A stretch of DNA of 22,218 bases from a virus, in IMG/VR virus record IMGVR_UViG_3300037237_000037, positions 1-22,218 of that record, one strand, 5' to 3'. Under the pieces are notes generated by a model. That model saw only the letters and a list, made by a program, of their open reading frames with translations. It was not told the origin of the DNA and searched no databases. How positions within the stretch are numbered: the stretch's first letter is position 1; every line of letters begins with the position of its first letter. Shown here in pieces: positions 1-21,047 of the stretch. The position numbers and the translations under genes were made by a program.

Positions 1-810
1 TATAAATTGGAAGTGAAATCCACCTGCCGCCCCATTAGTGCCCGATGTGGTTACGATGCCCGCTGAAGCAACTGATCCAGCAGGAACCGTAAACTGCATG
101 TTTTGAACTCCGCAATCATTACACCCTCCAAAGTCGATGCCGAATTTGTTTTCCGTCAGTGCGAGGTTGATCTGGCTCCAGCGAAAACCAGACCCTGGAT
201 CGCCAACCACCCAAAATCCCTGATTGCAGCCGTTCACGTTGGTAGCATTCAGCCCCGTGGTTATCTTGCATCCATTGGCTGTGCCGGGAACGTAGATGCC
301 GGTGTGGGCCGCGCAAGCCGCTGTGATGGCGTTCTGGATGGCCGTGGTGTCGTCTGTGGTGCCATCGCACTTTGCGCCCTCGGTTTCCACGTTGATTAGA
401 GTGGTTCCCGTCCCTCCCCCGCCCGCTCCGACGGTAAAAAGGTAGTTATAGCTTCCCCCTGAAGACGTGATCGTTGCCATGTACTGCCCTGGCTGGAACC
501 AGCCGCCCATATTGCCGTATGGGTCTGCGGATGCTACGCACGTAGAGGTTCCATTTAGCACAACCTGCATAGGCGTCGGTGAGGTCGGGCACGCTGTCAC
601 TGAATTGACGCCCGTGTAAGTCGTCGCCAGCGTGGTGCAAGTAGATCCCGAGCACGAATAGAACAGGATGCCCGCGCCTGGGATGGCATAGACGGGCAGC
701 AGGTTTCCGCCCTGAGCCTGAACGGTATACACATCGAAGTCCCAGCGGACATTCTGCGCGAGAAGAGGCGAGGCGAGAGCGAAGATCAATAGCCAGCGAA
801 TCAGTTTCAT
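1..810 (-). CDS. Tail spike/fibre protein with signal-peptide-like N-terminus (3' end cut by window edge)
   Basis: The reading frame opens with ATG at 810 and stays open for 270 codons to the window edge, so the C-terminus is missing. The ATG overlaps the stop of the upstream gene (ATGA) and has a GGAG ribosome site. Residues 1-18 look like a Sec signal peptide: Lys2 and Arg5, a hydrophobic core, then PLLA|Q. Residues about 20-128 form a beta-rich, cysteine-containing domain, followed by a glycine linker (129-134). Residues 145-161 (GAKCDGTTDDTTAIQNA) match the start of the pectate-lyase-3 type right-handed beta-helix of phage tailspikes. Ten cysteines in 270 residues are many for a virion protein. 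Position last in the tail module fits a receptor-binding spike. The beta-helix call is fairly sure; enzymatic activity cannot be judged. The signal peptide is odd for a protein assembled in the cytoplasm. Confidence 0.75.
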   Translation of the reverse strand, partial: MKLIRWLLIFALASPLLAQNVRWDFDVYTVQAQGGNLLPVYAIPGAGILFYSCSGSTCTTLATTYTGVNSVTACPTSPTPMQVVLNGTSTCVASADPYGNMGGWFQPGQYMATITSSGGSYNYLFTVGAGGGGTGTTLINVETEGAKCDGTTDDTTAIQNAITAACAAHTGIYVPGTANGCKITTGLNATNVNGCNQGFWVVGDPGSGFRWSQINLALTENKFGIDFGGCNDCGVQNMQFTVPAGSVASAGIVTTSGTNGAAGGFHFQFI

Positions 811-2237
811 TGGTTCTCCTGGGGGCGTAGAAGCGGAGCCGCAACACCAGCAGCGGTTCCCACCGGGGCTAGATTAGGCGCGGCGCCGGCCAGTCTGCCG
901 GCGTGATAGAGCAAATAACCCGCGCTAGTCTTGACTGGGATGCTGTCCATGAGCAGCGGAGCAGCCGCGAGGAACGGATTGTGGGTCGCGTATCCGAGCC
1001 CGACGCCGGCTGCGCCCTCAAGTCCACGATTAACCAGCGAAGTGAACGGCGGAGTTCCGGTATCGGCGCGCGCACCCGCACGTTCCGCGAGATTTCCCGA
1101 CCCTTGATAGATGCGATTCAGTGGTCCAGTTTCGGGAACGGCATCTGTGAGTAGTTTTCCTACTCCCCCGACTCCCTGTTGACGCACTGAGTTCATGTCG
1201 AACATCGTGGGATCGTTCCAGCGCGTGTTTGCGGCGACGTTGCGCTTGAGGTCGAAGAGCGAACGCGGCGTAAAGTCTTCCCCTGTGCTGCTACGGATGC
1301 CGCCTTCGTAGTCGTCCAATGCCGGACTCGCGCCTACACCTCCCGGACCGTTCTGGATTCCACGAAGTCGATTAACAGGGTCAAGCAACGCACTACGCAC
1401 GTCACCTGCTGGAATGCGAGTAGCGCCGAGGGGAAAAGGCGTCCCCGATGGCTCCGGCGACATCACTTGACCAGCGGGGCGACTCGCAGCGTCGTATGCC
1501 TCGCCGAGATGCTGTCCTGCGGTTTCCTTGACTGCTTCCGCCTTATTAGCCAATCCTCGCATCGTTAGCGCGGGCGTACCCCCGCCTTCCAAATATGCGC
1601 GTCCCGGTTGTGCTTCATGAGCGAAATCGCCTTTGAGCGACCCGGCGGCACGGTCAATCAATCCACCGCCGCCAGCCTGCATGGGTTCGCTTATGGCCTC
1701 AGCCCCGCGTCCCAGCAATTTGCCGCCAACTCCGCCCAGTTCCCCGCTTGCCGCCATTCCCGCGCCGGTCCCCACCAAATCAGTCGTGCCGCGCACGGGA
1801 CCATGTGCCTGATAATCCTCTGCCGCGTGCTCGATCAAAGGTCGTGCAAGATCAGACATCACACCCGCCGCATTGCCGGGATTGTTGGCAATCGCATGAC
1901 CGACAGTGCTTGCCATCCCTTCTGCGCTGTTGATCGGGTGCGAGACGAGCGGAACGACGCTAGAAGCGACGTGCTGCGCGAAATCATCTACTCCGCTGCG
2001 TAAAGGGCTTTGCCACTCTTCGCGGCGTGGATCGGGTGTAATGAGGTTGTCAGCCCATCGCTGGAAGCCATTGCGCGTGTCGCCGGGAGCGGGCTCTCCA
2101 GTCGGGGTGCGTCCGCTTGGATCGGTGGAAGCGGAAGCAGCTTTCGGCGCCGGCCCGACAATTTGATTGATTTCATCAGGGGTTGCATCATCAGGGACCG
2201 TGATCGTGCGGCCATCGGCTTTGATTGTGCGCGGCAT
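807..2237 (-). CDS. Probable internal virion / DNA-ejection protein (476 aa)
   Basis: The start ATG at 2237 shares one base with the stop of the upstream gene (TAATG). Residues about 4-26 contain DGRTITVPDDATPDEINQIV, resembling a short N-terminal motif I associate with phage structural and ejection proteins (pattern: DG-x-x-I-x-V/A-PDDAT-x-E/D-E/Q-I). The middle is rich in Gly, Ala and Pro with low-complexity stretches. The C-terminal 80 residues hold two hydrophobic Gly/Ala-rich segments (around GAAGVGLGYATHNPFLAAAP and TAAGVAAPLL) that could contact a membrane. Its place between a second probable internal protein and the tailspike fits a podovirus ejection protein. No lytic transglycosylase or peptidase motif is visible. 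The role is inferred from context and composition, not from a recognised full-length family. Confidence 0.6.
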   Translation of the reverse strand: MPRTIKADGRTITVPDDATPDEINQIVGPAPKAASASTDPSGRTPTGEPAPGDTRNGFQRWADNLITPDPRREEWQSPLRSGVDDFAQHVASSVVPLVSHPINSAEGMASTVGHAIANNPGNAAGVMSDLARPLIEHAAEDYQAHGPVRGTTDLVGTGAGMAASGELGGVGGKLLGRGAEAISEPMQAGGGGLIDRAAGSLKGDFAHEAQPGRAYLEGGGTPALTMRGLANKAEAVKETAGQHLGEAYDAASRPAGQVMSPEPSGTPFPLGATRIPAGDVRSALLDPVNRLRGIQNGPGGVGASPALDDYEGGIRSSTGEDFTPRSLFDLKRNVAANTRWNDPTMFDMNSVRQQGVGGVGKLLTDAVPETGPLNRIYQGSGNLAERAGARADTGTPPFTSLVNRGLEGAAGVGLGYATHNPFLAAAPLLMDSIPVKTSAGYLLYHAGRLAGAAPNLAPVGTAAGVAAPLLRPQENQ

Positions 2238-3736
2238 TATTGTTTCACCAGTTTCCCATCGGCACCGCGTACCCAGTTTTCAGCGTCCCCGCCGCCTTGC
2301 GGTTGCGCCTGGTTTGGATGCGCTTGCTCCTGCATCTTCTGGAGCCAAGGCAGCATGGTCTGAATAGTAGCTTTCAAGTTCTCCGGCGACTGCTGCGGGG
2401 CGTTAATAGCATGATCGAATTCCTGCCGCAAATTCTCAGGCAACCGCCCTTGAGCGTGGGCGAGAGCAACCGCGCTGGACATCATCAAAAGGTCGGAACG
2501 CAATTCCGCCATTGGAGCGTCTGGAGCGCCCACTGTTCCCTGCATGAATTTGTCCCATCGACCACTCAGCGGACCTATTTCCTTCGCCGTCGCGTCAATC
2601 CGCGCAAGCACTTCGGGAGCCATCTCTAGAACTGTTTCAGCGCGTCCTGCTGCCGTGCGCTGCGTCATGGTTGGGGTATTTGTCGAGTTCAACCCAGGTG
2701 CCGTTTGCGCCCCCGCAGGGACAGGTTCTCCTGGTTTGACCCGGATCATCTTCGTGCCGCCTTTGCCGTCTGGAACGAAGAAATTCTGCCCTTCCTTCTC
2801 TCCGGCGTTGACGGCCACAGCAGGCCGCTCGTAATGCTTGCCGAGGTCTACAACCTTGTTCCCCTTCTCATCCACCCCGTAAACGTGCGGGCCGTCTGCC
2901 GCGTCCACCGTTTGATAGGTGAGCTTCACGGGTGCTCCGATAGGCTTGCCGTCTACCGTGACATGTTGCGCCGTTCCGTCGGGGTGAATCATCATCGGTC
3001 CAGACGGCGTTTCCTCGTATTTTGGCGCAGGGTTTTGGAGGTTGGCCGTCTCCGCGTTCTCATGTCCAGCAGTAGCGTTCTCTGCGCCGATCTTCGCCTC
3101 AGCCTCTGGTGCAACCTCCGGCGTCTCTGCATTCGTCTTACCAGCCGTGGCGTTCTCGTTCGCAGCCTGCGCCTCTTTCTGCGCGTTTTCGGTGTCTTGC
3201 GTCAGTGCTGTATTGGCGCGGCCCAGATTGCGGCTGTAATTTCCTTCTGTACCGGGAACCATACGCTCAAGTCCCGGCGCAGCGGCATGGAGCAGCGTGT
3301 CTCCGACCATACCTGCGCCTTCCGCAGCGCCGCCGAGCAACTTACCTAAGAATGGATGTGCTTGCCCGAACCGTGACCCTTCTACATTATGAGCAATGTT
3401 CTCAACACCCGGTTTCTGCCCTAAGAGCATCCCGCGCTCGTTTGTATCGCCCTCAATTGTTCCCCGAGGTGCTTTCACGGTTGGCGGAGTCGAAGTTGGA
3501 AAACCCGAAAGAGAGGGTGCTGGGCTTTCCATTGAGATTGTTCCCTGCGGCGGTCCATCGTCAGGCTGGGGCAACAGCATTCCATGAGGGATAACCGGAG
3601 CTGCAGATGGGCTTGCGGTGGAGGGCGCCTGAGCGTTGCCGCCCATCTTCGCAACGACGGCCTGCGCATCGGGCGACATCGACTGGATGTGTCCCTGAAT
3701 CTCGCTCAATATCGGATTGAAAGTGAAGCCGTCCAT
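2237..3736 (-). CDS. Probable internal virion protein with 25-residue repeat (499 aa)
   Basis: ATG at 3736 follows directly on the TAG of the upstream gene; a weak purine-rich GGGGATGGG lies upstream. The N-terminal half (residues 30-110) is Pro/Ala/Ser-rich and probably disordered. A helical, Ala/Glu/Asn-rich region (about 170-235) contains two copies of ENATAG-x-x-NAET at residues 194-205 and 219-230, 25 residues apart. Residues 240-300 are beta-rich with DG and GK turns. A helical C-terminal part (about 355-475) includes a segment around LEMAPEVLARIDATAKEIG. No catalytic motif was recognised. Composition, length and neighbours fit an internal virion or ejection protein, but this is inference. 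Confidence 0.55.
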   Translation of the reverse strand: MDGFTFNPILSEIQGHIQSMSPDAQAVVAKMGGNAQAPSTASPSAAPVIPHGMLLPQPDDGPPQGTISMESPAPSLSGFPTSTPPTVKAPRGTIEGDTNERGMLLGQKPGVENIAHNVEGSRFGQAHPFLGKLLGGAAEGAGMVGDTLLHAAAPGLERMVPGTEGNYSRNLGRANTALTQDTENAQKEAQAANENATAGKTNAETPEVAPEAEAKIGAENATAGHENAETANLQNPAPKYEETPSGPMMIHPDGTAQHVTVDGKPIGAPVKLTYQTVDAADGPHVYGVDEKGNKVVDLGKHYERPAVAVNAGEKEGQNFFVPDGKGGTKMIRVKPGEPVPAGAQTAPGLNSTNTPTMTQRTAAGRAETVLEMAPEVLARIDATAKEIGPLSGRWDKFMQGTVGAPDAPMAELRSDLLMMSSAVALAHAQGRLPENLRQEFDHAINAPQQSPENLKATIQTMLPWLQKMQEQAHPNQAQPQGGGDAENWVRGADGKLVKQ

Positions 3737-4393
3737 CTATGCACCCATCCCCGCCGAAGCCCCGTTGATTCCGCTGACCGCATTCAATCCAAATTGCTTC
3801 AGAAGCGATTGCCATATAGTCGGCGCCGCGTCTCCCGCATTCTTCAGTGCAGCATTCGAGGCATTCAAGCCGCCCAATTCGGCCGATGTGTTCGTTCCGT
3901 AGAGACTTCCCAGCCCCTTGAGTCCTTCGGACTGCTGTTCGGTCTTGAGCTTCTGGTTCTCATTTTGCGTCGAGAGATTGGCCTTTGAGAGATTCTGGCT
4001 TGCCGCCTCACTGCTCTTTGCGATAGCAGCGTCTGCCGTGCCAGCGTTCTTTGTGCGCGCTGCCAGCAATGAACCTTGGCCGACCGCGCCGGCGTTAGCC
4101 CCGCCTGCGGTCTGCATGTTTGATGTTTGGATTTTGGCCATGTCCGCCGGGTTGATGCCTTGCGGATTTGTGGCCATCGTGGAAAGGGTCGGGCTTAGAG
4201 TGCCGTAGAGCGAGGCGGCGTTGTTTCCGGCAGTCGAGGAGATTTGATTACCCGTCTGGGCGTTTGCGAAGTCGTCTTTCTTGACACCGCTGCCGGTATT
4301 GCACAATTCCAACGTGCCCGAATACTCAAAACCCTCGTCTGAGAGGATTGAGCCGCTTTCGATGTCAATGACCGTCCTGGTGTGTACCCTCAT
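3737..4393 (-). CDS. Probable internal virion / tail-associated protein (218 aa)
   Basis: The chosen start, ATG at 4393, has a good ribosome site (GAGGTGAAGG) just upstream and overlaps the end of the GNAT-like gene by 29 bases. The first 35 residues (RVHTRTVIDIESG...FEYSG) are a compact beta-type motif; the remainder is Ala/Asn/Ser/Gln-rich and predicted helical with little charge, as in internal virion proteins of short-tailed phages. The stop TAG abuts the next gene's ATG, implying coupled translation. No enzyme motif is visible. It could equally be a small tail-assembly or scaffolding-like protein; placement in the ejection block rests on order and composition. Confidence 0.5.
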   Translation of the reverse strand: MRVHTRTVIDIESGSILSDEGFEYSGTLELCNTGSGVKKDDFANAQTGNQISSTAGNNAASLYGTLSPTLSTMATNPQGINPADMAKIQTSNMQTAGGANAGAVGQGSLLAARTKNAGTADAAIAKSSEAASQNLSKANLSTQNENQKLKTEQQSEGLKGLGSLYGTNTSAELGGLNASNAALKNAGDAAPTIWQSLLKQFGLNAVSGINGASAGMGA

Positions 4394-4742: not shown

Positions 4743-5317
4743 CGAACTGGAGGCTTCCCGGTCGAACTCCTAAATGCAACTGGCCCCGGACCAGAGATTA
4801 CGCCAGCCGAGCCGGTCCCGGTTCCCTGCGACGGCAACCAGAGAGGCCCCGCGACGCTTCCGCCGCCCTGTACGGCTCTGGGGGTCACGCCGCCATGAAC
4901 GACCGGCGAAGTTGGGCCTGACCACGGATAGGATTTGTATGCTTGGACGTACCTGGTTTGGTTGCCGATGAATTCAGTGTGGTTGCGAAGCTCCGTGCCC
5001 GACGCCTGAGTGTGGATTGCGTTCGTGAAGTTCGGATTATCGGCGTGAGCCACCCAGTATTGAACTCCCCGGTAGAGCGGCCCCTGATCGTTTAGGGCGA
5101 CGTGCATGTAACCATCGCGGGCCGTGACCTGAATGCCAAGAGGCGCTGGCGGCGGCTGAGGTTCCCCAGTGGGATTGCCGTTCGTCTGGGCCAGGTGATT
5201 CGAGATTGCGGAATTCAAGTCCTGAATCGCCTCGTACAGACGTGCTCCGTATCCTGTCCCTGCCGTGGCGGGATCGGTGGCTCTGAGGTAGTCGAGATTG
5301 CGAATCTTGAGTGTCAC
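4739..5317 (-). CDS. Fibronectin-III-like virion protein (192 aa, GTG start)
   Basis: I place the start at the GTG at 5317, which overlaps the stop of the nozzle gene as GTGA; AAGGGG lies about ten bases upstream. The frame is open further upstream, but that part lies inside the 1200-residue gene in another frame and is a shadow. Residues 1-46 form a helical segment (KIRNLDYLRATDP...LNSAISNHL). A Pro-rich linker follows (about 50-60), then a domain of about 85 residues ending RYVQAYKSYPWSGPTSP, the hallmark end of a fibronectin type III fold. The tail is Gly/Ser/Pro-rich and probably disordered. FnIII domains are common in phage tail proteins and often assist surface attachment. It may decorate the tail nozzle; the exact role is unknown. 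Confidence 0.6.
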   Translation of the reverse strand: MTLKIRNLDYLRATDPATAGTGYGARLYEAIQDLNSAISNHLAQTNGNPTGEPQPPPAPLGIQVTARDGYMHVALNDQGPLYRGVQYWVAHADNPNFTNAIHTQASGTELRNHTEFIGNQTRYVQAYKSYPWSGPTSPVVHGGVTPRAVQGGGSVAGPLWLPSQGTGTGSAGVISGPGPVAFRSSTGKPPVR

Positions 5318-8300
5318 TGCGCTGCGCCCCTTGTCTTGAGCCTGGTCGGAATCAGCGCCACGGTCACCATCTGAATGTTGTAGGCATTGTCCGTCTGTCC
5401 AACCAGCGGCACAGATGAGAACTTGAGAAAGAATCTGCTCCCACGAGCAATAATCATCCCCCCGTAACCCCACTGAAGATCGATGTTCGGCTGACTCACC
5501 GTGCGTTCGCAGGAAAGCGGCCAGATATTCGCCGGATTGTTCGGAGCAACCTGTACCAGCATTGTCCCGGCTGGCCAAGTCACGGTTGCAAGAACGCCGA
5601 AGAACCCCTTCTGATGGCTTCCGACTTGCAATTGCTGCTCCGCGCCCCTGTTGACAAAGCCGTAGGTGTAGTAGTAGCTCGACACAAGCCCATAGTCGTC
5701 GTCTGTGTACTTGTTCGGATTGAGCGTGTAGACGTTCCCAAATCCGCCGACTGCAGGCGTCGATCCATTTCCCCCTCCGAGCACAAGCGAGAGCGTCCCA
5801 GCGACGCGATACATCAGCGCGGCGCCGTTCATGCTCATATTCCAAAGTGACCATTTGCGGGAGTTGTCCGTCGCAATCAGTTTTCCGCTGAAAGACACTC
5901 GAAACGGTGGAGAATTGGCGATAGATTGAGCCGAGTCGAGTTGGCGATACGACATGAATAGAAGTTTGCTGGGAGCGGTCGCAGTTCCCATCGGGACGCC
6001 GAAATAAAGCGCCCTTTCTACCGGATCGTTCACGCACCAGACCGTCAGAGCCGCCGCGGGATTGATTTGTTCCCAATCGGGCTGGATTTCCTGCGAAATC
6101 TTGTCAGGGTACGCACCTCCAAAGATTCGCGCGCCGGAAAGACTCGCCCAGGCCATCCACTCCTCACCCCCGGAGGCCGCTGTGTCGTCCGCTTGGCTCT
6201 TCGTGAGGGAAAAGGCCGATAACGCACCGCAGTTCGCCCCAGCCTCGTTTACGGTCCATCCTGAAGGCTCTGTTGTCCCGTTGTCAGTTGTTTCATGCAG
6301 CCTGCCGCTTGGTTCCTGGGTGAGCATGTAGAACGTCTCGCGCATGACGCCAAAATCCATGACCTTGCGCGTGTCAGTGACAGGCCCGAACTTGCCCGTT
6401 ACTCCGTCGATACCCTCTTCGTTGTTTCCGTAAGAACCAAAGAGAACGCCATCGAGATACGGGGTCTGTGAGTAGATCGCGCTGATTTCATCAACCAGGA
6501 TCGTTCGGTTTGTCACCGTCGAAACCGCATAGATGGTCAACAGCATGTCATTCGGAATAGCCTGCGGCATTGTGGCAGAGAAGTTAGCCTGCACAAAACT
6601 CCCCGACACACTCATTGCCGCACCGTTGATAGTGGCTGTCGAAGTAAAACTTGCCAATGCACTTGAAATCACGGCGTAGAAGTTCAGATTTGCATCGATC
6701 GCGCTCGGCTTCAACCACACGCGCAAGGTGTACGGCGTGTTTCCAGTGAGGATCGGATTTCCATAGGCGTCCTCGTAGGCGGACTGAGATAGGACGCCCG
6801 ATTGACCAGCGCCTGCGTTCGCAGTGATGAGCCAGGCGGACGATGGTGGCAATGATGGGTTAGCAGACAGCGTTCCAGGGATGGCGCCGAGCGTCCAGCC
6901 GGCCGGGACCGTAGGCGCTGAAGGCAGATACCCTCCATCGAAGCTGAGATTGAGGAAGTTCTGAAGCCGATTGCGCTGGCCGTAGGTGATGAGACGGGTT
7001 GCATACTGCCCAAACCCCAAAGCCCCGTCTAGCACAATCTGCTGCTTTAAGTCATTGCCGGGTTCTGAAGTTCCAAGGCCTCCAAACAGCGAATTGTCAG
7101 AGAAGTCGAGCAACACCGATGTCGTCGTATTGTCGTTGATCTGCGTTGCAGTAGAGACGATTTGCCCATCGACCTGAGACGGATCAGGAAGGTAGTAGAA
7201 ATAAGCGCCATCCGCACCTGTGAACTCAAGGATGCGTGCCACGACATTTGCGGGACCGATGGGAATGTTTGAGACCTGAACGTATTGCCCCCCGTTTGCA
7301 ATGAATTTCACATAGGGGCTTGGCTTCAGCACCGCGCCCTGCCGCGTGAGGAAATTCACGCGCATCAGATGGAATCCAGGTGCGGCTTGACCAAATGGTG
7401 TGACCGTCCCTCCAGTTGCGGTTGTAGTCCCATCTGGCCCGTATTGCTGATAAGTAAATGAAGTCGCGGACGGAATCGAGGTCACATAGAATGTCCCGTC
7501 CCATGAAAATGAAACAACTCCACTCGTCCAGATGCCGTCCGCATAAGTGATAGGAACCTGAAACGTGGTTGGTGTGGGACATTCCTCAACTTGGAAATAG
7601 ATCGGGTCGGGTGTGCTCGCTGGGATGGGCCAAGCGACAGCAACCGCCAAGCCAGTTTCTGTAAGCGGAGCTGTACCAAGCCCAATTGTGAAGAAAGAGA
7701 AACTGTTGGGATCGTTCACACTCTCAATGGTCACTTGTGTATTGAATACGGCTCCCGCGCCGGCCCCGCCGCTTATGGTCACCGTGCTACCTGGGATTAG
7801 GCCATGCGGAGACCCCAACTCCATCGTAACGACGTTGCCATTCCATGCTGCAGACCAGGATCCAGACCCGCCAACCAAAACTGGATTCACCCCGGTTATG
7901 GTGACATTGTTTTCTGGCTGCAACCCATGTGGAGTAACCGTCGTCACGGTGGCCAAGCCAGGATTCTGTTCATTGTCGATCACGATTGAAGCGATCCCGC
8001 CCCCGATGGCCAGAACGCCATTGCCTTGCATCAGCGCCTGATAGCCGATCCTCAGATTGTGGTTTGCTGCTGTCGAGGCAGACACTTGATTGTTGAGCCT
8101 GACGAGGGTTGTCCCGCCTTGGACCGTCGCAGTCCCCCCCGTTCCAGTCTGCAAAGTTGCCGAAAGGAAAGAGACCACAAACACAGTTGGGCTGATGACA
8201 CTCAAAATCGGCCAATATTGATTGAATGTCCCGTTCGTGTTTCCCGCGATCAGGACGGCCCCAGAAAGAGAAGTAGGCGCAGAGGCCAGCGTGACAGTAA

Positions 8301-8916
8301 AGCTCGTCCAGAACGTCACGTAGCCCCGCACAGGCCCTTCGTATACGGTCGTCGTCCCCGTGCTGACAATGCTGCTGATTGTTACGGGTGCGATAGTTCC
8401 GGAAACGGCTAGAGCCACGGGAGGGAACGCGAGAGATGCGACCGTGGGCACCGCGCCGGGACCATCCTGCGTTACCCTGTCAAGATTCGTTCCGTCCCAC
8501 TGGAGGGGCACTGTGGCCCCGTGGAGGGTGTCGTTGAGCGCGATGAACTCCCGCCCGAACATGGTCGCTGACTTGGCGTAGCTTCCCGGAGGCCCGGTAA
8601 AGAGCAAATTGCCGATTTCCGGGGCGTTGATCGGATCTTCCCAGTAGAGTTGCCCGTTGGAAAACAGGTACAGGTTCTTGATCGCGCCGGTGGGCGTGAC
8701 GAAGGACTTCTGATAGGTGACCGTGGTATTGGGAGGGCCGTTGGCGAGGACGCGCTCAAGGTTTGGGCGAGTCAGTACCGCGCCGGGGATGTAGGTGTTG
8801 TCCTGCTCATCTGGAGACAGACCTTCGCAGAGGTCCACTGCGGCCATTTCAGTGCACCTTCCGGCCAGCACCTCTAATGGAATCTCAATCGCGCCTTTTG
8901 TCTGGAATCCGGGCAC
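5314..8916 (-). CDS. Probable tail nozzle / tail tubular protein B-like, large beta protein (1200 aa)
   Basis: Translation starts at GTG 8916 with a strong AAGGGGG ribosome site ending five bases before it. The N-terminal 150 residues include LYLFSNGQLYWEDP and REFIALNDTLHG, propeller-like strands typical of nozzle proteins. Residues about 310-425 carry two copies of an HGL-x-P-x-x-x-VTI-x-G module (HGLQPENNVTITG, HGLIPGSTVTISG), similar to FCCH-type beta modules of phage tail proteins. Residues about 690-830 look like a carbohydrate-binding-type beta sandwich (NTPYTLRVWLKPS, ILVDEISAIYS). The C-terminal third returns to propeller-like strands (MDFGVMRETFYMLTQ, WCVNDPVERALYFGVP, LIATDNSRKWSLWNM). 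It follows the probable adaptor gene and precedes the ejection block, as nozzle genes do in podoviruses. It is longer than T7 gp12 because of the inserted beta domains. A baseplate or hub protein is a less likely alternative. Confidence 0.6.
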   Translation of the reverse strand: MPGFQTKGAIEIPLEVLAGRCTEMAAVDLCEGLSPDEQDNTYIPGAVLTRPNLERVLANGPPNTTVTYQKSFVTPTGAIKNLYLFSNGQLYWEDPINAPEIGNLLFTGPPGSYAKSATMFGREFIALNDTLHGATVPLQWDGTNLDRVTQDGPGAVPTVASLAFPPVALAVSGTIAPVTISSIVSTGTTTVYEGPVRGYVTFWTSFTVTLASAPTSLSGAVLIAGNTNGTFNQYWPILSVISPTVFVVSFLSATLQTGTGGTATVQGGTTLVRLNNQVSASTAANHNLRIGYQALMQGNGVLAIGGGIASIVIDNEQNPGLATVTTVTPHGLQPENNVTITGVNPVLVGGSGSWSAAWNGNVVTMELGSPHGLIPGSTVTISGGAGAGAVFNTQVTIESVNDPNSFSFFTIGLGTAPLTETGLAVAVAWPIPASTPDPIYFQVEECPTPTTFQVPITYADGIWTSGVVSFSWDGTFYVTSIPSATSFTYQQYGPDGTTTATGGTVTPFGQAAPGFHLMRVNFLTRQGAVLKPSPYVKFIANGGQYVQVSNIPIGPANVVARILEFTGADGAYFYYLPDPSQVDGQIVSTATQINDNTTTSVLLDFSDNSLFGGLGTSEPGNDLKQQIVLDGALGFGQYATRLITYGQRNRLQNFLNLSFDGGYLPSAPTVPAGWTLGAIPGTLSANPSLPPSSAWLITANAGAGQSGVLSQSAYEDAYGNPILTGNTPYTLRVWLKPSAIDANLNFYAVISSALASFTSTATINGAAMSVSGSFVQANFSATMPQAIPNDMLLTIYAVSTVTNRTILVDEISAIYSQTPYLDGVLFGSYGNNEEGIDGVTGKFGPVTDTRKVMDFGVMRETFYMLTQEPSGRLHETTDNGTTEPSGWTVNEAGANCGALSAFSLTKSQADDTAASGGEEWMAWASLSGARIFGGAYPDKISQEIQPDWEQINPAAALTVWCVNDPVERALYFGVPMGTATAPSKLLFMSYRQLDSAQSIANSPPFRVSFSGKLIATDNSRKWSLWNMSMNGAALMYRVAGTLSLVLGGGNGSTPAVGGFGNVYTLNPNKYTDDDYGLVSSYYYTYGFVNRGAEQQLQVGSHQKGFFGVLATVTWPAGTMLVQVAPNNPANIWPLSCERTVSQPNIDLQWGYGGMIIARGSRFFLKFSSVPLVGQTDNAYNIQMVTVALIPTRLKTRGAAQ

Positions 8917-11619: not shown

Positions 11620-12885
11620 TTATTTTCCGAAGTAGCCCTTGGGGATCGTCACGTTGTTGATGAACGCATTGATGCGCGGCATCCACGAGCCCACTTGCAC
11701 GCCCATGATCATCCAGAACATGTTTGTGGTCGCAACCGAACCATCTGCCGCGTACTGCGGGAAGGTGGTTTGGCCGTCAACCTCGTACATGTCCAGCGCC
11801 TTGGCTTCGAGACGGCCCCACTGCTTGAGGGCGAAGAAGTCGATGAGTCCCGGAATTGCGCGGGGGTTCACGACCATCTCATAGCCCGCCATTGCGGAAG
11901 GGGTCTTGCCGGCCAGCATGTCAGCGGACTCTTTGCGCTTGCCGGATCCGATGTCGATGCGCTGCACCAGAAGAGCGTTATCCTCCCATGCAGCCGCCAT
12001 ATCGACGTTGCAGTGGACGATTAGGTCGTTCTCGTCTGCGGCTTCGATTCCTTTGGCGAGGATGATCTGCGCGAGCATGGCGCGGACGGTTGCCGGGACC
12101 AGAGCGCCATTGGCCGGGATGTTGCGCGCGGAGAACTGATCAGGATAGGTCGAGCGCAGGATGTTCATAAAGTTGCCGGTGTTGCCAGCAACCTGGTAGT
12201 AGTTGCGCCCGAATAGTCCTGAGTTGGGCACGCCTGCCGAGCCGGAGACGAGCAGGTAATAGCCACCTGTGACACCACCGGGGACCGGCCCCGTAAGCCA
12301 AAGGGTTGTGTTGGTAGTGTCTACGGTCTGAATCGTCACTGTGCCGACGAAGCCAGCAGCGCCAGTCAAGGCCGAGTAGATATCGATCGGCTGTCCCGAC
12401 TGGAAGAAATCGGCATTGTTGACAACGAGGTAATTGGCCCCAGCGGTGACAACAGTGTCCAGCGTGTTTGCGCCGTCGCCTGTGCAGAGAACCGCATCCA
12501 TCATGCCCGCGAAGGTCCGGGTTACGGTCTCTTCGGTGTAGGCGACGTAATCCTTGATCGAGCGGGAATCTCCCTCAGTCGCGTAATCGGATTGCGCGGT
12601 ATAGGCGCCGCCCTGCGAGAAGTACACACAGGAGAGTTGCCCATAGACTTCCTGGGGGCCATCACCAACGCCCAGAGATCCGCCATTCGGATTGAACTGG
12701 CGAAACGCCGCGGTCGGAATCGGGGTGAATGGGATGCGCGAAGGGCGCGAGGAAACAGGCTTGATGTCCGTTCGTGCTTGGACGCGGCTCCAGAATACGG
12801 AGGAAAGGAGGAAAGTCTCTTCGAGCTTGTCCCGCAGATACTCTCGCTGGGACGCAATTGTGTTTGCATTATTGCCTGGGGGCAT
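11620..12885 (-). CDS. Major capsid protein (421 aa)
   Basis: I chose the ATG at 12885 because GAGGTG lies six bases upstream; a GTG nine bases earlier is part of that ribosome site. The N-terminal helix (SQREYLRDKLEETFLLSSVFWSRV) leads to an extended strand (RPSRIPFTP), followed by a long helix region (residues about 105-135), as in HK97-type capsid folds. Residues about 139-216 form a beta-rich insertion (VDTTNTTLWLTG, GGYYLLVSG). The C-terminal half (PATVRAMLAQIILAKGIE, DLIVHCNVDMAAAW, GYEMVVNPRAIPGLIDFF) resembles the A-domain region, and the end (NMFWMIMGVQVGSWMPRIN) a terminal strand. Position after portal and scaffold agrees. It has the longest leader in the operon and a hairpin behind it, both suiting high expression. 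I know of no closer named family. Confidence 0.85.
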   Translation of the reverse strand: MPPGNNANTIASQREYLRDKLEETFLLSSVFWSRVQARTDIKPVSSRPSRIPFTPIPTAAFRQFNPNGGSLGVGDGPQEVYGQLSCVYFSQGGAYTAQSDYATEGDSRSIKDYVAYTEETVTRTFAGMMDAVLCTGDGANTLDTVVTAGANYLVVNNADFFQSGQPIDIYSALTGAAGFVGTVTIQTVDTTNTTLWLTGPVPGGVTGGYYLLVSGSAGVPNSGLFGRNYYQVAGNTGNFMNILRSTYPDQFSARNIPANGALVPATVRAMLAQIILAKGIEAADENDLIVHCNVDMAAAWEDNALLVQRIDIGSGKRKESADMLAGKTPSAMAGYEMVVNPRAIPGLIDFFALKQWGRLEAKALDMYEVDGQTTFPQYAADGSVATTNMFWMIMGVQVGSWMPRINAFINNVTIPKGYFGK

Positions 12886-13087
12886 GGGACACACCTCAAG
12901 TGAATTTGAGTTGCTGTCGCCATTCCGCCGCCGGCCGATCGCTACGTTTTTTGGTGGGAGTCACGCGCTCCGGGCGATTCCATTGCAAACTTCGTGGAGA
13001 TACTTTCAATTGTGCTATCCGCGCTTGGCTACCGTTTAAGGAGTTCGGTTTTCCTCTTGCCTTGCGCTTCAAGCGATTACGAACCCA
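12886..13087 (-). other. Long untranslated leader of the capsid gene
   Basis: These 202 bases are the longest gene-free stretch within the operon, where other gaps are mostly under 20 bases. The only minus-strand ORF of note is a 13-codon one starting MESPGARDSH. A TTGAAA (a possible -35) lies in the middle but without a convincing -10 at the expected distance. The last bases hold the GAGGTG ribosome site. It directly follows the cold-shock gene. It may hold a promoter or a regulatory leader; I see no defined riboswitch or strong hairpin. Confidence 0.4.
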
Positions 13088-13300
13088 CTATATCACGGTC
13101 ACCGCATCTGCCTGCGGCCCTTTCTCTCCTCTGACCACCGCGAACGATACCCGTTGCCCTTCTTTGAGCGCCCGGTAGCCGTCCATATCGATGGCTGAGT
13201 GATGCACAAAAACGTCCTTGCCGCCGCGATCTGGGGCGATGAACCCATATCCCTGCGGGGCCGAAAACCACTTCACAGTTCCTTCAATCCGTTCGTCCAT
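13088..13300 (-). CDS. Cold-shock-domain protein (CspA family)
   Basis: This 70-residue protein is one complete cold-shock domain, the usual length of the CspA family, which binds single-stranded RNA and DNA and melts RNA structure. Residues 10-21 contain the RNP1-type motif [12 protein letters not shown] and residues 29-35 the RNP2-type motif DVFVHHS; the key aromatic residues Trp11, Phe12, Tyr18, Phe20, Phe31 and His33 are all present. The C-terminus ([24 protein letters not shown]) is typical too. The start ATG overlaps the previous stop (TGATG) with AAGGTGAG as ribosome site. It lies between the probable scaffold and the capsid genes, an unusual place for an RNA chaperone. It may aid late mRNA translation; that is inference. 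Confidence 0.95.
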
Positions 13301-14777: not shown

Positions 14778-17222
14778 TTACATGGTCTGCGGCGCTGCAG
14801 GAGCCTGTGGAGGCCCTGGCGGTGCCGGTTTCGGTGGCGCAATCGCACTCATCGCTGCCTGCTGTGCCTGAATCATAGCAGCCGCACGCGCCAAGTGCTC
14901 CTTCGTATGCAGTTTCACGTTCTCAACCCCGGCCACGTTCGGCATCGGTGTTCCGTCCGGTCCGGGCCGGCCAACATTGATCTCCCGCCAGCAAGCCTCG
15001 GTCGAAAGCCAGTCCTGCCCGCACGGACCCTCCCACTGGTGGAAGTCAAGATCATCAACCTCGATGGACGGCTTGAGTAAATCTTCGGGGTATTGCTGCC
15101 CGTTGCCCAAATCGATCATCTTGGGAGGTGCAGGTGCAGGCGGTTCCGGCAATCCCTGCTGCTGCGCCATCAAGGCCACCGCTGCGTGCTGTTGAAGCAT
15201 CTGTTTCTGCTGAAGAATGTACGCCTGCATCTCTTCGGGGCTGGGCGGGATCGGGGAAGCCTGCAAAAGCTCCTCGATTTCGCGCATTTGCTTCTTTCCG
15301 GCCTCGGCTTCCATCAATTGAATCTCTTTGAAGCCCATCACCTGCAGAATGATCTCCCAGTTGTAGACATCTCCAAGCAACTGGGCCGAAATCTGCGGAT
15401 TCGTCGCGGCGACCGTAATAAGTTGCTGCAAAAGTGCTCGTTTTGCCGATGTTGACTCTGGAAAGCTGGAATCCTCGTCTGGGAAGGCCCCAAATTTTCC
15501 TTTTGTCAGCTTTTCGAGCTTCAAAACCTGTGTCTGGCCCTTTACGGGCACCAAAATCTGCTCTGCATGGTCGGGATTCTTCGACGCCTTCAGCGCGGCA
15601 AGATAGTACATCTTCGCCATGATCCATTGAACTGAGGCCCACGGAATGCCTTTGACGCCCATCGCCTGATTCTTGGCCTGGGCATATCCAGATGCCGTTT
15701 TCTGGTCTTCCATCGAAGCGCCAAACAGCGCCGGAGGGGTTCCAAGCACGAATTGCAGGAATGGACCCGCCAGATACTCCATCAGGCTCACCAGCGAGGC
15801 CGGGAGGACCAAATCCGGCTCACGGAAGAAATCGGCCTCAAGGGCTTGGCCGGCTCGGGCTTTCTTCAGCGCAAAGGCATACGGCTCGGACCGCTGATCC
15901 TGAATCGCATCAAATTCCTCGTCCTCGGCGGAAATGTACGTCCGCGGCCAACCCAGGTCTTGCGCCTCCCGCAGCGAGTTCATGATGTCGTTGAAGAAGT
16001 CCTGAATGACGATAGAGTCGTCCATGATCGCTTCGCGCGCCATGCCATCGCCTTCGTAGGGGAAGCCAATCACAAGCCCGTCATCCATCGACTCGGCCCA
16101 CGCCTCTGCGTAGGTTTTGCCGATGAAGACAGAATGAACGCCGTCAGGGAAGAGTTGATTGAGTTTGTCGCGCACCGTGAACGGCTGCCCGTCCTCAGTT
16201 TCGTTCTCTTCCGGCTCATCGGGCGGGATGTCGTTCTCTTCGTCGCCCTGAAATAGCTCGTAAGGATCGTCGAACTTTTCATCAAGGAAGTTGCACGGCC
16301 TGAGATAGCAGTTCGCCCGCACCGCCAGATGGGTCATGGCATCGCCGACCTGCGCATAGCGCCTGGTGCCCTGCAATATGCCGAGCCGCGCAATGCGCTC
16401 ATAGGCGTTCTCGCAGATTCCCGCCGAATCGCCCTTGATCTTCTTCTCGATGTGCGGATACTGCATCTTGGCTGAGTTGACGGTCGGATCGTTGTACAGG
16501 ATCACCGCGTCAAGCTCGCTCTGGCTGTTTGCCGTGAGCGGGAAAACACGACTTGAAAGAGCACTCCAAACGTGCGCCGTCTCGTTCTGCTTCGCTTCTC
16601 CGTCCTCGTTCATACCCCAGAGTTGCGCGTTCGCCTCAGTATTGACGGAGACAATCGTTAGCCCAGACTCGCAGAATTCCTGCACGATTTTGAGCTGAAT
16701 GCCCTTGGAGTCGTTTGAACGGTCGAAAAACTCTCGGTAAATCTCGGCCGTGTTGGCCGCTTCTAAGTCTTCGGTTTCCTGAGTTTTGGGCCGGAAGTCG
16801 ATGCCGGGAGGATTTTGGGTAAGAACAGATTCAATGACAAGTTCCGTGGGTCGAACGACGTTGTAGTCGCCAATGTATTGCGGGCACTCAATGAATCCAG
16901 ATCCAACAGCAACGGATTCCCCTGCCACTCCGACGGCAAACATTCCAGTCTGCCGATTCTCATAGATGTGCTGGAAGCCTTTGCGGTAATACTTGTTCCG
17001 TCTCACCCGCATGACGTGACGCCGCCGGTCGTACAACTCTTTCGTCCCCAAAGACTCCAACGCCACCTTCAAGGCAGTCTTCAACTGTTCGGGTAGATAG
17101 CAGTTGCGCTCGCCGTAGGTTGGCGGCTCATTGGGATCTTGAATTTCTTCAGGATGGTCCTCGACAGATTGGACGCCGTCGTTCGGTGCGGTGGGCTCGT
17201 TGAGAACTGGGGTGGTTGCCAT
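14778..17222 (-). CDS. Portal protein (814 aa)
   Basis: The portal ring is the dodecameric vertex through which DNA is packaged and to which the tail binds. The protein is near the size of large podovirus portals. Visible features: a helical N-terminal region (ALKVALESLGTKELYDRRRHVMRVRRNKYYRKG), a wing-like region (about 110-430), a segment FLQFVLGTPPALFGASMEDQKTASGYAQAKNQ typical of portals near the stem, and a Gln-rich helical C-terminus (MQAYILQQKQMLQQHAAVALMAQQQG) like the barrel or crown helix of large portals. The last 40 residues are Ala/Pro-rich and probably disordered. ATG at 17222 has only a weak AAGG site close by. It sits between terminase and scaffold/capsid genes as expected. 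Confidence 0.85.
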   Translation of the reverse strand: MATTPVLNEPTAPNDGVQSVEDHPEEIQDPNEPPTYGERNCYLPEQLKTALKVALESLGTKELYDRRRHVMRVRRNKYYRKGFQHIYENRQTGMFAVGVAGESVAVGSGFIECPQYIGDYNVVRPTELVIESVLTQNPPGIDFRPKTQETEDLEAANTAEIYREFFDRSNDSKGIQLKIVQEFCESGLTIVSVNTEANAQLWGMNEDGEAKQNETAHVWSALSSRVFPLTANSQSELDAVILYNDPTVNSAKMQYPHIEKKIKGDSAGICENAYERIARLGILQGTRRYAQVGDAMTHLAVRANCYLRPCNFLDEKFDDPYELFQGDEENDIPPDEPEENETEDGQPFTVRDKLNQLFPDGVHSVFIGKTYAEAWAESMDDGLVIGFPYEGDGMAREAIMDDSIVIQDFFNDIMNSLREAQDLGWPRTYISAEDEEFDAIQDQRSEPYAFALKKARAGQALEADFFREPDLVLPASLVSLMEYLAGPFLQFVLGTPPALFGASMEDQKTASGYAQAKNQAMGVKGIPWASVQWIMAKMYYLAALKASKNPDHAEQILVPVKGQTQVLKLEKLTKGKFGAFPDEDSSFPESTSAKRALLQQLITVAATNPQISAQLLGDVYNWEIILQVMGFKEIQLMEAEAGKKQMREIEELLQASPIPPSPEEMQAYILQQKQMLQQHAAVALMAQQQGLPEPPAPAPPKMIDLGNGQQYPEDLLKPSIEVDDLDFHQWEGPCGQDWLSTEACWREINVGRPGPDGTPMPNVAGVENVKLHTKEHLARAAAMIQAQQAAMSAIAPPKPAPPGPPQAPAAPQTM

Positions 17223-17832: not shown

Positions 17833-18753
17833 TTATAGACCGCCGACTACGCGGTAGGTGGTCGTTACCTTGAGCGTTCCAGTGCCGGTGATGAAAGGGG
17901 CGCTTGCGTTGGAAATCGTAACCGCTGCATTGAGAGCATCGGCGCCAAGATCGGAACTGTACGTCCCTGTCAGCACGTCGATTGCGGTCACGGTCGGCGT
18001 AGTCAGGAAGGTAGCCGCAGCCGTGGTTGATGCTGGATAAGTCTCGCTGGTGCCATAGAACAGACCAATCGCACCACCGTTGGCATAGGCAGTTCCGGTG
18101 TTCAGATTCTCCAGGATCACCTGATCAATGATGATCGCGGTGTTGGCACCCCCAGCAGGAATCAACTGAACCGGAGTGACTTGCATCCCAAGAACCTGTG
18201 CATTCGTCAAGGTCGTTACATTGGTCAGAATCGGGTAGATGCCTGTTCCACCAAGGTGATTGTCCGTGACGGTCACGCCTGAAGGAACGGTGGCCGCTGC
18301 CAGAATGCCCGCAGTTCCTCCCAGCTTGTACCAGGCTGCGTCTACAATCACAATCCCGCCGCCGGCGGCGCTGGCCGCGTTGATCGCTTCCTGCAGGCCA
18401 ACCGTGCCACTCGCCACCTTGTCCCCGGTGCCGTGAGCATGGGAGAAAGTGGTTGCTGTGAAGTTGGACGACTGGTAAATCTGTGGGGTGTTGTTGCTGA
18501 CCGCGCTCGGAGTGACGGTATCGGCACTCGCGCCAGTCCCTACAATTACGGGTGCGGTGGTCGCCAGTGGTGCGATGATTGTGCCGTCGTCCAGCGTCAC
18601 CGTACCGAAGGCCACGGTCAAGGTTTGGGTTCCTACCGCTGCTGTGGCGCCGCTGGGGTTGTCCACGGTGAGGCCTGGAATGTCGGCGGAGATGCCGTAG
18701 GCATAGGAGGCGGCGCGATATTGACCAGCGAAGAAAGTCGGGTTCTTTGGCAT
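17833..18753 (-). CDS. Beta-rich probable virion protein between terminase and portal genes (306 aa)
   Basis: ATG at 18753 has AGGAG six bases upstream. The protein is low in charge and rich in Thr, Ala, Gly and Val, as in exposed virion proteins. The first 95 residues contain strand-turn-strand repeats (TQTLTVAFGTVTLDDGT). Residues 105-150 (SHAHGTGDKVASG, GLQEAINAASAAGGGIVIVD) resemble the entry of a right-handed beta-helix, but no long helix follows. The C-terminal 110 residues (from VTPVQLIPAGGANTAIIID) form a beta domain ending TGTLKVTTTYRVV, of a kind I associate with environmental-phage structural proteins. Candidate roles are capsid decoration or fibre; no catalytic motif seen. Its position ahead of the portal gene is unusual for a tail protein. 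Confidence 0.6.
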   Translation of the reverse strand: MPKNPTFFAGQYRAASYAYGISADIPGLTVDNPSGATAAVGTQTLTVAFGTVTLDDGTIIAPLATTAPVIVGTGASADTVTPSAVSNNTPQIYQSSNFTATTFSHAHGTGDKVASGTVGLQEAINAASAAGGGIVIVDAAWYKLGGTAGILAAATVPSGVTVTDNHLGGTGIYPILTNVTTLTNAQVLGMQVTPVQLIPAGGANTAIIIDQVILENLNTGTAYANGGAIGLFYGTSETYPASTTAAATFLTTPTVTAIDVLTGTYSSDLGADALNAAVTISNASAPFITGTGTLKVTTTYRVVGGL

Positions 18754-19287: not shown

Positions 19288-19551
19288 CTAGGGATCGCTT
19301 GCTTTTTCGAGGGCTGCTTGCGCCTGACGCCAGTTTACACGCCGCGGCGCTGCCGGCTTCGGTTCAATCTTCGGCTGTTCTGGTTCGGCTGTCAAACCAT
19401 TTTTCAGATCGGCTATCTCGACAAAGGCCTGCTTCAGATCGGTTTCGATGGATGAAATGCGAACAGACTGAGCTTGTGCGGCCTTCGCCAGCGTCAGATT
19501 CTCCTTCTCCAGCACATCGATTCCCAGCCACTTCTTTACCTTGCCGACCAT
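19288..19551 (-). CDS. Small coiled-coil phage protein (87 aa)
   Basis: ATG at 19551 overlaps the terminase end by 16 bases and has GGAGG five bases upstream. The N-terminus is amphipathic (GKVKKWLGIDVLEKENLTLA), followed by a helical, heptad-like segment (SVRISSIETDLKQAFVEIADLKN), a Pro-rich linker and a basic C-terminus (PRRVNWRQAQAALEKA). Its TAG stop forms part of the TAGGAG ribosome site of the next gene. It is of a type often found beside terminase or portal genes in phages, without a known role. Confidence 0.6.
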   Translation of the reverse strand: MVGKVKKWLGIDVLEKENLTLAKAAQAQSVRISSIETDLKQAFVEIADLKNGLTAEPEQPKIEPKPAAPRRVNWRQAQAALEKASDP

Positions 19552-21047
19552 CTCGTCCTCCGCTTTGCCTTGTGCCGCTCCTCAGACTCGAACTTCCGCA
19601 TTGCCATCGCCTTCTCAGTCGGGTCCGTGATCGGCAGCGCAATCTCGGCACGCCTGACTTCCATTGGAACCCTGGTCGTCCCAAGCATATCGACCAGGCC
19701 ATACCGCAGGCAATCGCCAACATCATCATACAGATGTTCCGTCTTGCGGATATCCTCGCCGCCCTTGTCTGAATCGTATTCGAGCGATGGAATCGCCGCT
19801 AGAGCTTCGGGGCACATGTCGGAGATGAACCAGGTATCGGATTGGATCAGCGAGTAAACGAACCGCCAGCCGACGACGCGCGAGCCGGGGTCCATGTTGG
19901 CCGGCTGCGGCTCTGGCAACTTCTTAGCTCCCTGCCTGAGCAGTTCTGCCGCCGTGTTCTGGCTCGTCTTCTTCCCAAAGGCATCGCTCGACAGAATCCA
20001 TGTTTTGATCTTTTCGCCTTCGCTCTTGACCTGCACTTCCTGCCCAAGCTCAATCTCGCTCGTGTCCGAGTCCGACAAATTTGCGATATGTTCCCTATAA
20101 GTAAACACGCACCTGCGCGGCGCATCCCAGTCTCGACCCAGCAACTTCGCCTGTTCTGGGCTCACGAAACCCACAGAATGCCAGTAAACCGGGCTTGCGT
20201 GCTTGAATCCCCAATCCTGCCCAATCCAGTGATTCCACCAAGGCTGCACGATCTGCATGACAATCGCGTGAGGAGCCTTGCGCTCCGATTCCTCGAAGTT
20301 GATGAAGTACTGCCCTTCCGGGATTGTCCAATCGCCATCGAGCAACGCTTTGCGTTTCTTCTCCGGCAGCCCCTCAAGTGTTGCCCGGTACGAGGCATCC
20401 ACGTGCGGATTGTGCTCTAGTAAAGCTTGAACAAAATAGAATTCGTGTTTCAGATGCTTCAGTTCAGGAGCGAACTTCGCCCCACGTAACCCATCAATCC
20501 ATATAGCCTTGACCCATTGCAGACCTATCCCGGTCGGGTTGGTTGCGCCCAGAAAACATGGCCGCTTAATGCCTGGGGTGCGGAGGCGGAACAACACTAG
20601 ATCCTCAAATACCTCGCGTTCGTTTTCCGTCAACTCTTCAACCGCGATATCGCAGAACTCGGCAGACTTGTAAGATTGGACATCCTGAAGATTTCTAAGC
20701 GCAATGCGGCCGCCGCCGAATTCTTCTTTAAGAAAGAAGCACAACCCCTCTATTCGTGTTTCCTTCATTTCCCCGAGCCATGGGGGGAACTCGCGCTTTA
20801 TCTTGGATAGTTGACGATCCTCCAAGCTCTTGTATGTCCCAGAGAATAATCCAACACAGAGCCCTTGAATGCCGGTTTCGGCGAAACGCTTCAGGAGCTG
20901 CCGAAGACACCACCAGCGCAATAAATACGACTTGCCGCCGCCACCACCACCACCGTAAAGAACGAAGCGGTAAAGGTCGGTGGCCTCAATGCACTCGCGT
21001 TGCTTAGGCGTGGGGTCAATCAGGGAGGAGAGGCGGATGTCTTCCAT
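19536..21047 (-). CDS. terL: Terminase large subunit (503 aa)
   Basis: This is the packaging motor: an ATPase that drives DNA into the prohead and a nuclease that cuts the concatemer. ATPase: P-loop YGGGGGGGKS at residues 31-40 (pattern GG-x-x-GGGKS) and Walker B CDIAVEE at 132-138 with catalytic Glu137 or 138; LGATNPTG (166-173) fits the coupling motif. Nuclease (RNase H fold): Asp278 in IGQDWGF, Asp355 in SSDAFG, and DDVGDCLRYGL from 441. All key acidic residues are present. The length is normal. ATG 21047 abuts the previous stop with weak ribosome signal, so it may be coupled. The C-terminus is basic (HKAKRRTRW). The packaging mode cannot be told from this. Confidence 0.95.
   Translation of the reverse strand: MEDIRLSSLIDPTPKQRECIEATDLYRFVLYGGGGGGGKSYLLRWWCLRQLLKRFAETGIQGLCVGLFSGTYKSLEDRQLSKIKREFPPWLGEMKETRIEGLCFFLKEEFGGGRIALRNLQDVQSYKSAEFCDIAVEELTENEREVFEDLVLFRLRTPGIKRPCFLGATNPTGIGLQWVKAIWIDGLRGAKFAPELKHLKHEFYFVQALLEHNPHVDASYRATLEGLPEKKRKALLDGDWTIPEGQYFINFEESERKAPHAIVMQIVQPWWNHWIGQDWGFKHASPVYWHSVGFVSPEQAKLLGRDWDAPRRCVFTYREHIANLSDSDTSEIELGQEVQVKSEGEKIKTWILSSDAFGKKTSQNTAAELLRQGAKKLPEPQPANMDPGSRVVGWRFVYSLIQSDTWFISDMCPEALAAIPSLEYDSDKGGEDIRKTEHLYDDVGDCLRYGLVDMLGTTRVPMEVRRAEIALPITDPTEKAMAMRKFESEERHKAKRRTRWSAR

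Follow-up and report, generated by a model that had tools for sequence, protein, structure and literature searches.

Predicted Sec signal peptides and paired cysteines in the tailspike genes of related uncultured tailed phages

Receptor-binding proteins set the host range of phages. The general view is that they are built in the cytoplasm, and tailed-phage spikes are otherwise known to assemble from cytoplasmic pools. The closest described systems are the P22/Sf6-like podophage tailspikes, such as Sf6 gp14 and that of cyanophage Pam1, in which an N-terminal attachment domain is followed by a right-handed beta-helix. The spike described here is like them in this domain order, in its polysaccharide-binding or -cutting role as proposed, and in its place in the structural operon, and it has middling fold matches to them. 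It differs from them in that it carries a predicted Sec signal peptide, has cysteine pairs that are conserved, and lacks sequence similarity to the phages of INPHARED. Structural proteins with cleavable Sec signal peptides are known from filamentous phages, namely, the coat proteins pIII and pVIII. Those proteins are inserted into the membrane and become subunits of virions that are extruded without lysis, whereas the phage studied here has a terminase, a portal, and a capsid. The literature searched contained neither an account of tailed-phage spikes with signal peptides nor a precedent for an export route, and export followed by attachment to the virion is not described there as an assembly mode for tailed phages.

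The window, meaning the whole stretch of DNA that was analyzed, is a complete virus record of 22,218 bases, and the 3' end of its spike gene therefore lies beyond the sequence. All of the structural genes are on the minus strand, with the spike gene last. The label "ejection-like" is based on size, place, and composition, with no profile matches to these proteins. The features are as follows.

19536 to 21047, minus strand: terminase large subunit (PHROG 2)
14778 to 17222, minus strand: portal protein (PHROG 156)
11620 to 12894, minus strand: major head protein (PHROG 14242)
5314 to 8916, minus strand: 1,200-amino-acid tail protein, used as the query for related phages
3737 to 4393, minus strand: first ejection-like protein
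2237 to 3736, minus strand: second ejection-like protein
807 to 2237, minus strand: third ejection-like protein, without a signal peptide, the upstream neighbor of the spike gene, with an ATGA overlap
816 to 820, minus strand: Shine-Dalgarno sequence AGGAG of the spike gene (CTCCT on the plus strand), seen in the sequence
1 to 810, minus strand: first 270 codons of the tailspike gene, whose 3' end is lost at the contig end
757 to 810, minus strand: predicted cleavable Sec (SPase I) signal peptide, residues 1 to 18, cleavage between A18 and Q19, helix at residues 2 to 17 in the model
427 to 756, minus strand: mature N-terminal beta-sandwich domain, residues 19 to 128, conserved across the phage lineage and proposed to attach the spike to the virion
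637 to 654, minus strand: residues 53 to 58, with the second cysteine pair, Cys53 and Cys58
589 to 591, minus strand: Cys74, found in all 25 relatives and proposed to pair with Cys91
538 to 540, minus strand: Cys91, invariant in 25 of 25 relatives
286 to 396, minus strand: PF12708 pectate-lyase-like beta-helix entry, residues 139 to 175

A small cold-shock-like protein is also encoded within the structural operon (13088 to 13300, minus strand).

The spike protein has the N-terminus MKLIRWLLIFALASPLLAQ, in which the boundary between signal and mature protein lies between MKLIRWLLIFALASPLLA and QNVRWD. By a rule-based caller, MKLIRWLLIFALASPLLA followed by Q has the features of a Sec/SPase I signal, namely, a positive n-region, a hydrophobic core, and small residues at positions −1 and −3. 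The Tat and lipoprotein routes were considered and rejected, the segment having neither a twin-arginine motif nor a lipobox. The ten cysteines of the translation are all in the mature part, with none in residues 1 to 18. Residues 139 to 175 match the start of the PF12708 family (Pect-lyase_RHGA_epim) at 2.1e-8, with 34.7 bits against a cutoff of 27, and the match spans just 39 of the 213 model positions because the contig ends. An earlier sequence-only reading had reported the signal peptide, the ten cysteines, and the beta-helix entry, and all three are confirmed on the minus-strand gene 810 to 1. The AGGAG is at the usual distance from the ATG at position 810, which overlaps the stop of the upstream gene. 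Upstream of this ATG, the frame stays open for only 21 more codons and contains no ATG, GTG, or TTG, so an anchor starting farther upstream is impossible in the window gene.

Searches with the spike retrieved two viral contigs, and those with its N-terminal domain retrieved a third; the 1,200-amino-acid tail protein led to up to 40 phage loci. Downstream of it, behind the ejection-like proteins, the next gene starts with a signal peptide, and one to three more such genes often follow, with three in a row in L008 (MKPFRWLLLFVLASPLMAQ, MRILRWLLFALLMPVGASAQ, and MKSAIKLAAILLMAIPCAAQ) and four in a row in L061. No spike gene was present at the corresponding place in the distant clade L041 to L045 and L047, and the genes of L015 were without a signal peptide. 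The caller, which is a rule set of our own and not SignalP, with the core required to be uncharged, was applied alike to all plus-strand genes of 27 loci. It was positive for 26 of 27 first spike genes versus 4 of 268 upstream genes (Fisher P = 5.6e-32), a value that is indicative because the caller is permissive (16.6% of shuffled N-termini are called positive), position served to select the first spike gene, and the loci are relatives of one another. One of the four positive upstream genes (L022:12875-15514) is itself a spike, and the product of the only negative first spike gene, that of L013, has an N-terminus of the same type but of greater length. When the proteins were anchored on the conserved Gln, position +1 was Gln in 41 of 42 proteins, and position −1 was A, G, S, C, or T in all 42. 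The permissiveness of the caller would suit an origin of the signal-peptide pattern and the cysteines in chance or in a misplaced gene start. Such an origin is extremely improbable given the difference from other genes of the same phages, the cysteine parity described below, and the strong ribosome site with its ATGA overlap; moreover, the pattern recurs in related phages and is therefore not due to chance. The signal peptide and its tie to spike and fiber genes are thus shown by sequence statistics.

Among the five closest phages, residues 1 to 18 are 6 to 17% identical in nine of ten pairs, versus 67 to 87% for the mature domain, and the break in conservation at the cleavage site is sharp. 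The exceptional pair is the window and L008, with 72% identity in the signal region. A cleaved signal peptide predicts just such a pattern, in which the signal sequence varies freely and the start of the mature protein is sharply conserved. The sequence-only reading had also proposed a hydrophobic virion anchor, that is, residues 1 to 18 left uncleaved and holding the spike in the virion or the membrane. Conservation of the hydrophobic start among homologs, which that reading had wished to see examined, was found in part: all relatives keep the hydrophobicity, which accords with an anchor, but the sequence is poorly conserved in most pairs, although the residues directly after it are conserved, and a working anchor should itself show conservation. 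In addition, the signal-peptidase-type pattern (small −1, Gln at +1) is kept across unrelated fiber types. Also in keeping with an anchor is an additional N-terminal extension before the signal segment in five relatives (L005:5854-6010, L013:6775-6920, L025:16010-16160, L035:15951-16100, and L040:15958-16110), which consists of a hydrophobic transmembrane helix and a conserved YSxxExYFERDWPRxTWRG loop. Within the extension, changes are more frequent at third codon positions than at first and second ones, which indicates that it is translated. These five relatives do have the kind of upstream extension that had been named as pointing to a normal anchor domain, yet it ends in a signal-peptide-like segment before Q-x-x-R-x-D, and the extension may serve as part of a lengthened signal peptide. 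An uncleaved anchor is therefore disfavored and appears improbable.

Even cysteine counts were found in 29 of 31 complete mature spikes (P = 4.6e-7), compared with 69 of 120 other genes with at least two cysteines in the same loci (P = 0.12). In the relatives of the window phage, the ejection-like proteins directly upstream of the spikes are nearly cysteine free. The N-terminal domains of 25 relatives, with 17 to 66% identity to the window protein, all contain Cys74 and Cys91. The second pair (51 or 53 with 58) is complete in 21 of them and missing from 4, and none has only half of it. The pairing of the cysteines is thus shown by the statistics, and even numbers with conserved pairs are what is expected of disulfide-bonded proteins. 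Together, these patterns indicate that the spikes are probably cleaved, exported, and disulfide bonded. Predicted export is strongly supported, and the export branch of the sequence-only reading is supported for the whole spike class. An unplanned comparison concerned the window gene at 17833 to 18753 (minus strand), between the terminase and portal genes, which has no cysteine and no signal peptide. Its homolog in phage G002, with 53% identity over 191 residues, starts with a signal peptide and contains ten cysteines in its mature part; at two aligned sites, these stand where the window protein has N and S. The observation covers the window gene and L068:7924-9753.

Among the five closest phages, the N-terminal domains of the spikes are 62 to 84% identical, while the C-terminal parts are dissimilar, except for 43 residues shared by the window and L002. 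The C-terminal domains found in relatives include PF12708, beta-helix, GDSL, S74 chaperone, and YadA stalk domains, and there are PHROG tail spike matches. As in podophage tailspikes, a conserved attachment domain is joined to a variable receptor-binding part, and the gene lies in the structural operon after the tail and ejection genes. The N-terminal domain was found in this phage lineage only, and a sequence search of the PDB with it returned nothing significant. Residues 41 to 128 were modeled as a confident beta-sandwich (pLDDT of about 90), and the full-spike model of L005 was poor (pLDDT of 43). The best Foldseek match was the Sf6 tail assembly chain 7ukj_C (E = 3.8e-5), which is probably the Sf6 tailspike, judging by its chain length and by what is known of Sf6. 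By VIA, residues 130 to 261 matched the Pam1 tailspike (Z = 6.2) and residues 27 to 127 matched a Pan3 tail-complex chain (Z = 6.0); the Z scores of 5.2 to 6.2 for Pam1, Pan3, and Sf6 are middling and may reflect just a common arrangement. The N-terminal domain, the swapped C-termini, the operon position, and the weak fold matches indicate that the proteins are virion tailspikes rather than free enzymes.

The other option of the sequence-only reading was a protein acting outside the cell, for example on surface sugar or as a free receptor-masking factor. In that case, the exported and oxidized product would not belong to the virion; as a glycan-active enzyme or a masking factor, either periplasmic or released, it would act on debris or neighboring cells when the host lyses. 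The evidence for export and disulfides fits this equally, and the GDSL hydrolase domains in some relatives and the several such genes per phage are in line with it. However, a conserved N-terminal domain with unrelated C-termini is the usual design of virion spikes, the genes lie within the structural operon, and there are matches to S74, YadA-stalk, and PHROG tail-fiber families. In addition, the records of phages G002 and G003, when read through, contained no further spike-like gene without a signal peptide that could serve instead. The export part of that proposal is supported, but a virion tailspike is in better agreement with the modular architecture and with the place in the operon, and a free role is rather unlikely.

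The preferred reading, to which we give a probability of roughly 0.6, is an exported, disulfide-stabilized receptor-binding tailspike that is cut before Gln19 and joined to virions at lysis. The spike would be made with a cleavable Sec signal peptide and cross the inner membrane; Sec export alone places a protein in the periplasm of a diderm cell. After cleavage before Gln19, disulfide bonds would stabilize the spike in the periplasm. The conserved beta-sandwich would be the virion-attachment module and the variable beta-helix the module for binding the host surface or cutting its glycans. Cytoplasmic particles would meet the periplasmic spikes at cell lysis, and the spikes would attach at or after that point. 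We infer virion membership and this timing of assembly. P22 tailspikes join finished heads in vitro, which makes late attachment feasible. A lineage that exports and oxidizes its receptor-binding proteins would, if real, have a different assembly route, in which disulfide-stabilized spikes become possible and lysis becomes a step of virion maturation. The spike and fiber genes of about thirty related uncultured phages share the trait, a distribution suggesting that these viruses fold their host-recognition proteins outside the cytoplasm. A signal peptide together with an even cysteine count, in the gene directly behind the ejection genes, also offers a sequence rule for recognizing receptor-binding proteins in uncultured phages.

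The spike had no match among INPHARED phages and PLSDB plasmids, and searches with the portal and the 1,200-amino-acid tail protein likewise gave none; the terminase showed only about 25% identity, to many phages. The sole match in the genome collections, L007 in a Bacteroidetes metagenome-assembled genome, was judged to be due to chance (33% identity over 75 residues of a cell-surface protein). A second fiber family used as the query retrieved four more contigs, all with signal-peptide fiber genes. One of them, L067, has no similarity to the structural proteins of the window, and its head protein belongs to a different PHROG, which indicates that the trait is present in more than one lineage. 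Three consecutive signal-peptide fiber genes are located at L067:5374-10045. There is about an even chance that at least two uncultured tailed-phage lineages export their receptor-binding spikes and fibers via Sec, with oxidation in the periplasm and with completion of the virions no earlier than lysis. The trait is possibly tied to the host, for which the G+C content of 57.5% and the signal peptides ending in AQ might, as a guess, suit Acidobacteriota.

Extra cysteine-containing proteins without a signal peptide are encoded by insertions that separate the tail protein gene from the small gene next to it in L014 (7079-10650), L037 (11140-13937), and L038 (11125-14037), with that of L014 having sialidase/BNR-like repeats. 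A protein of 125 to 133 amino acids without a signal peptide is encoded just before the fiber gene in L014 (14804-15205), L037 (18155-18532), L038 (18970-19362), and L022 (19946-20329). These four phages are without the window-type N-terminal domain at that place, and the small protein is possibly a fiber adaptor.
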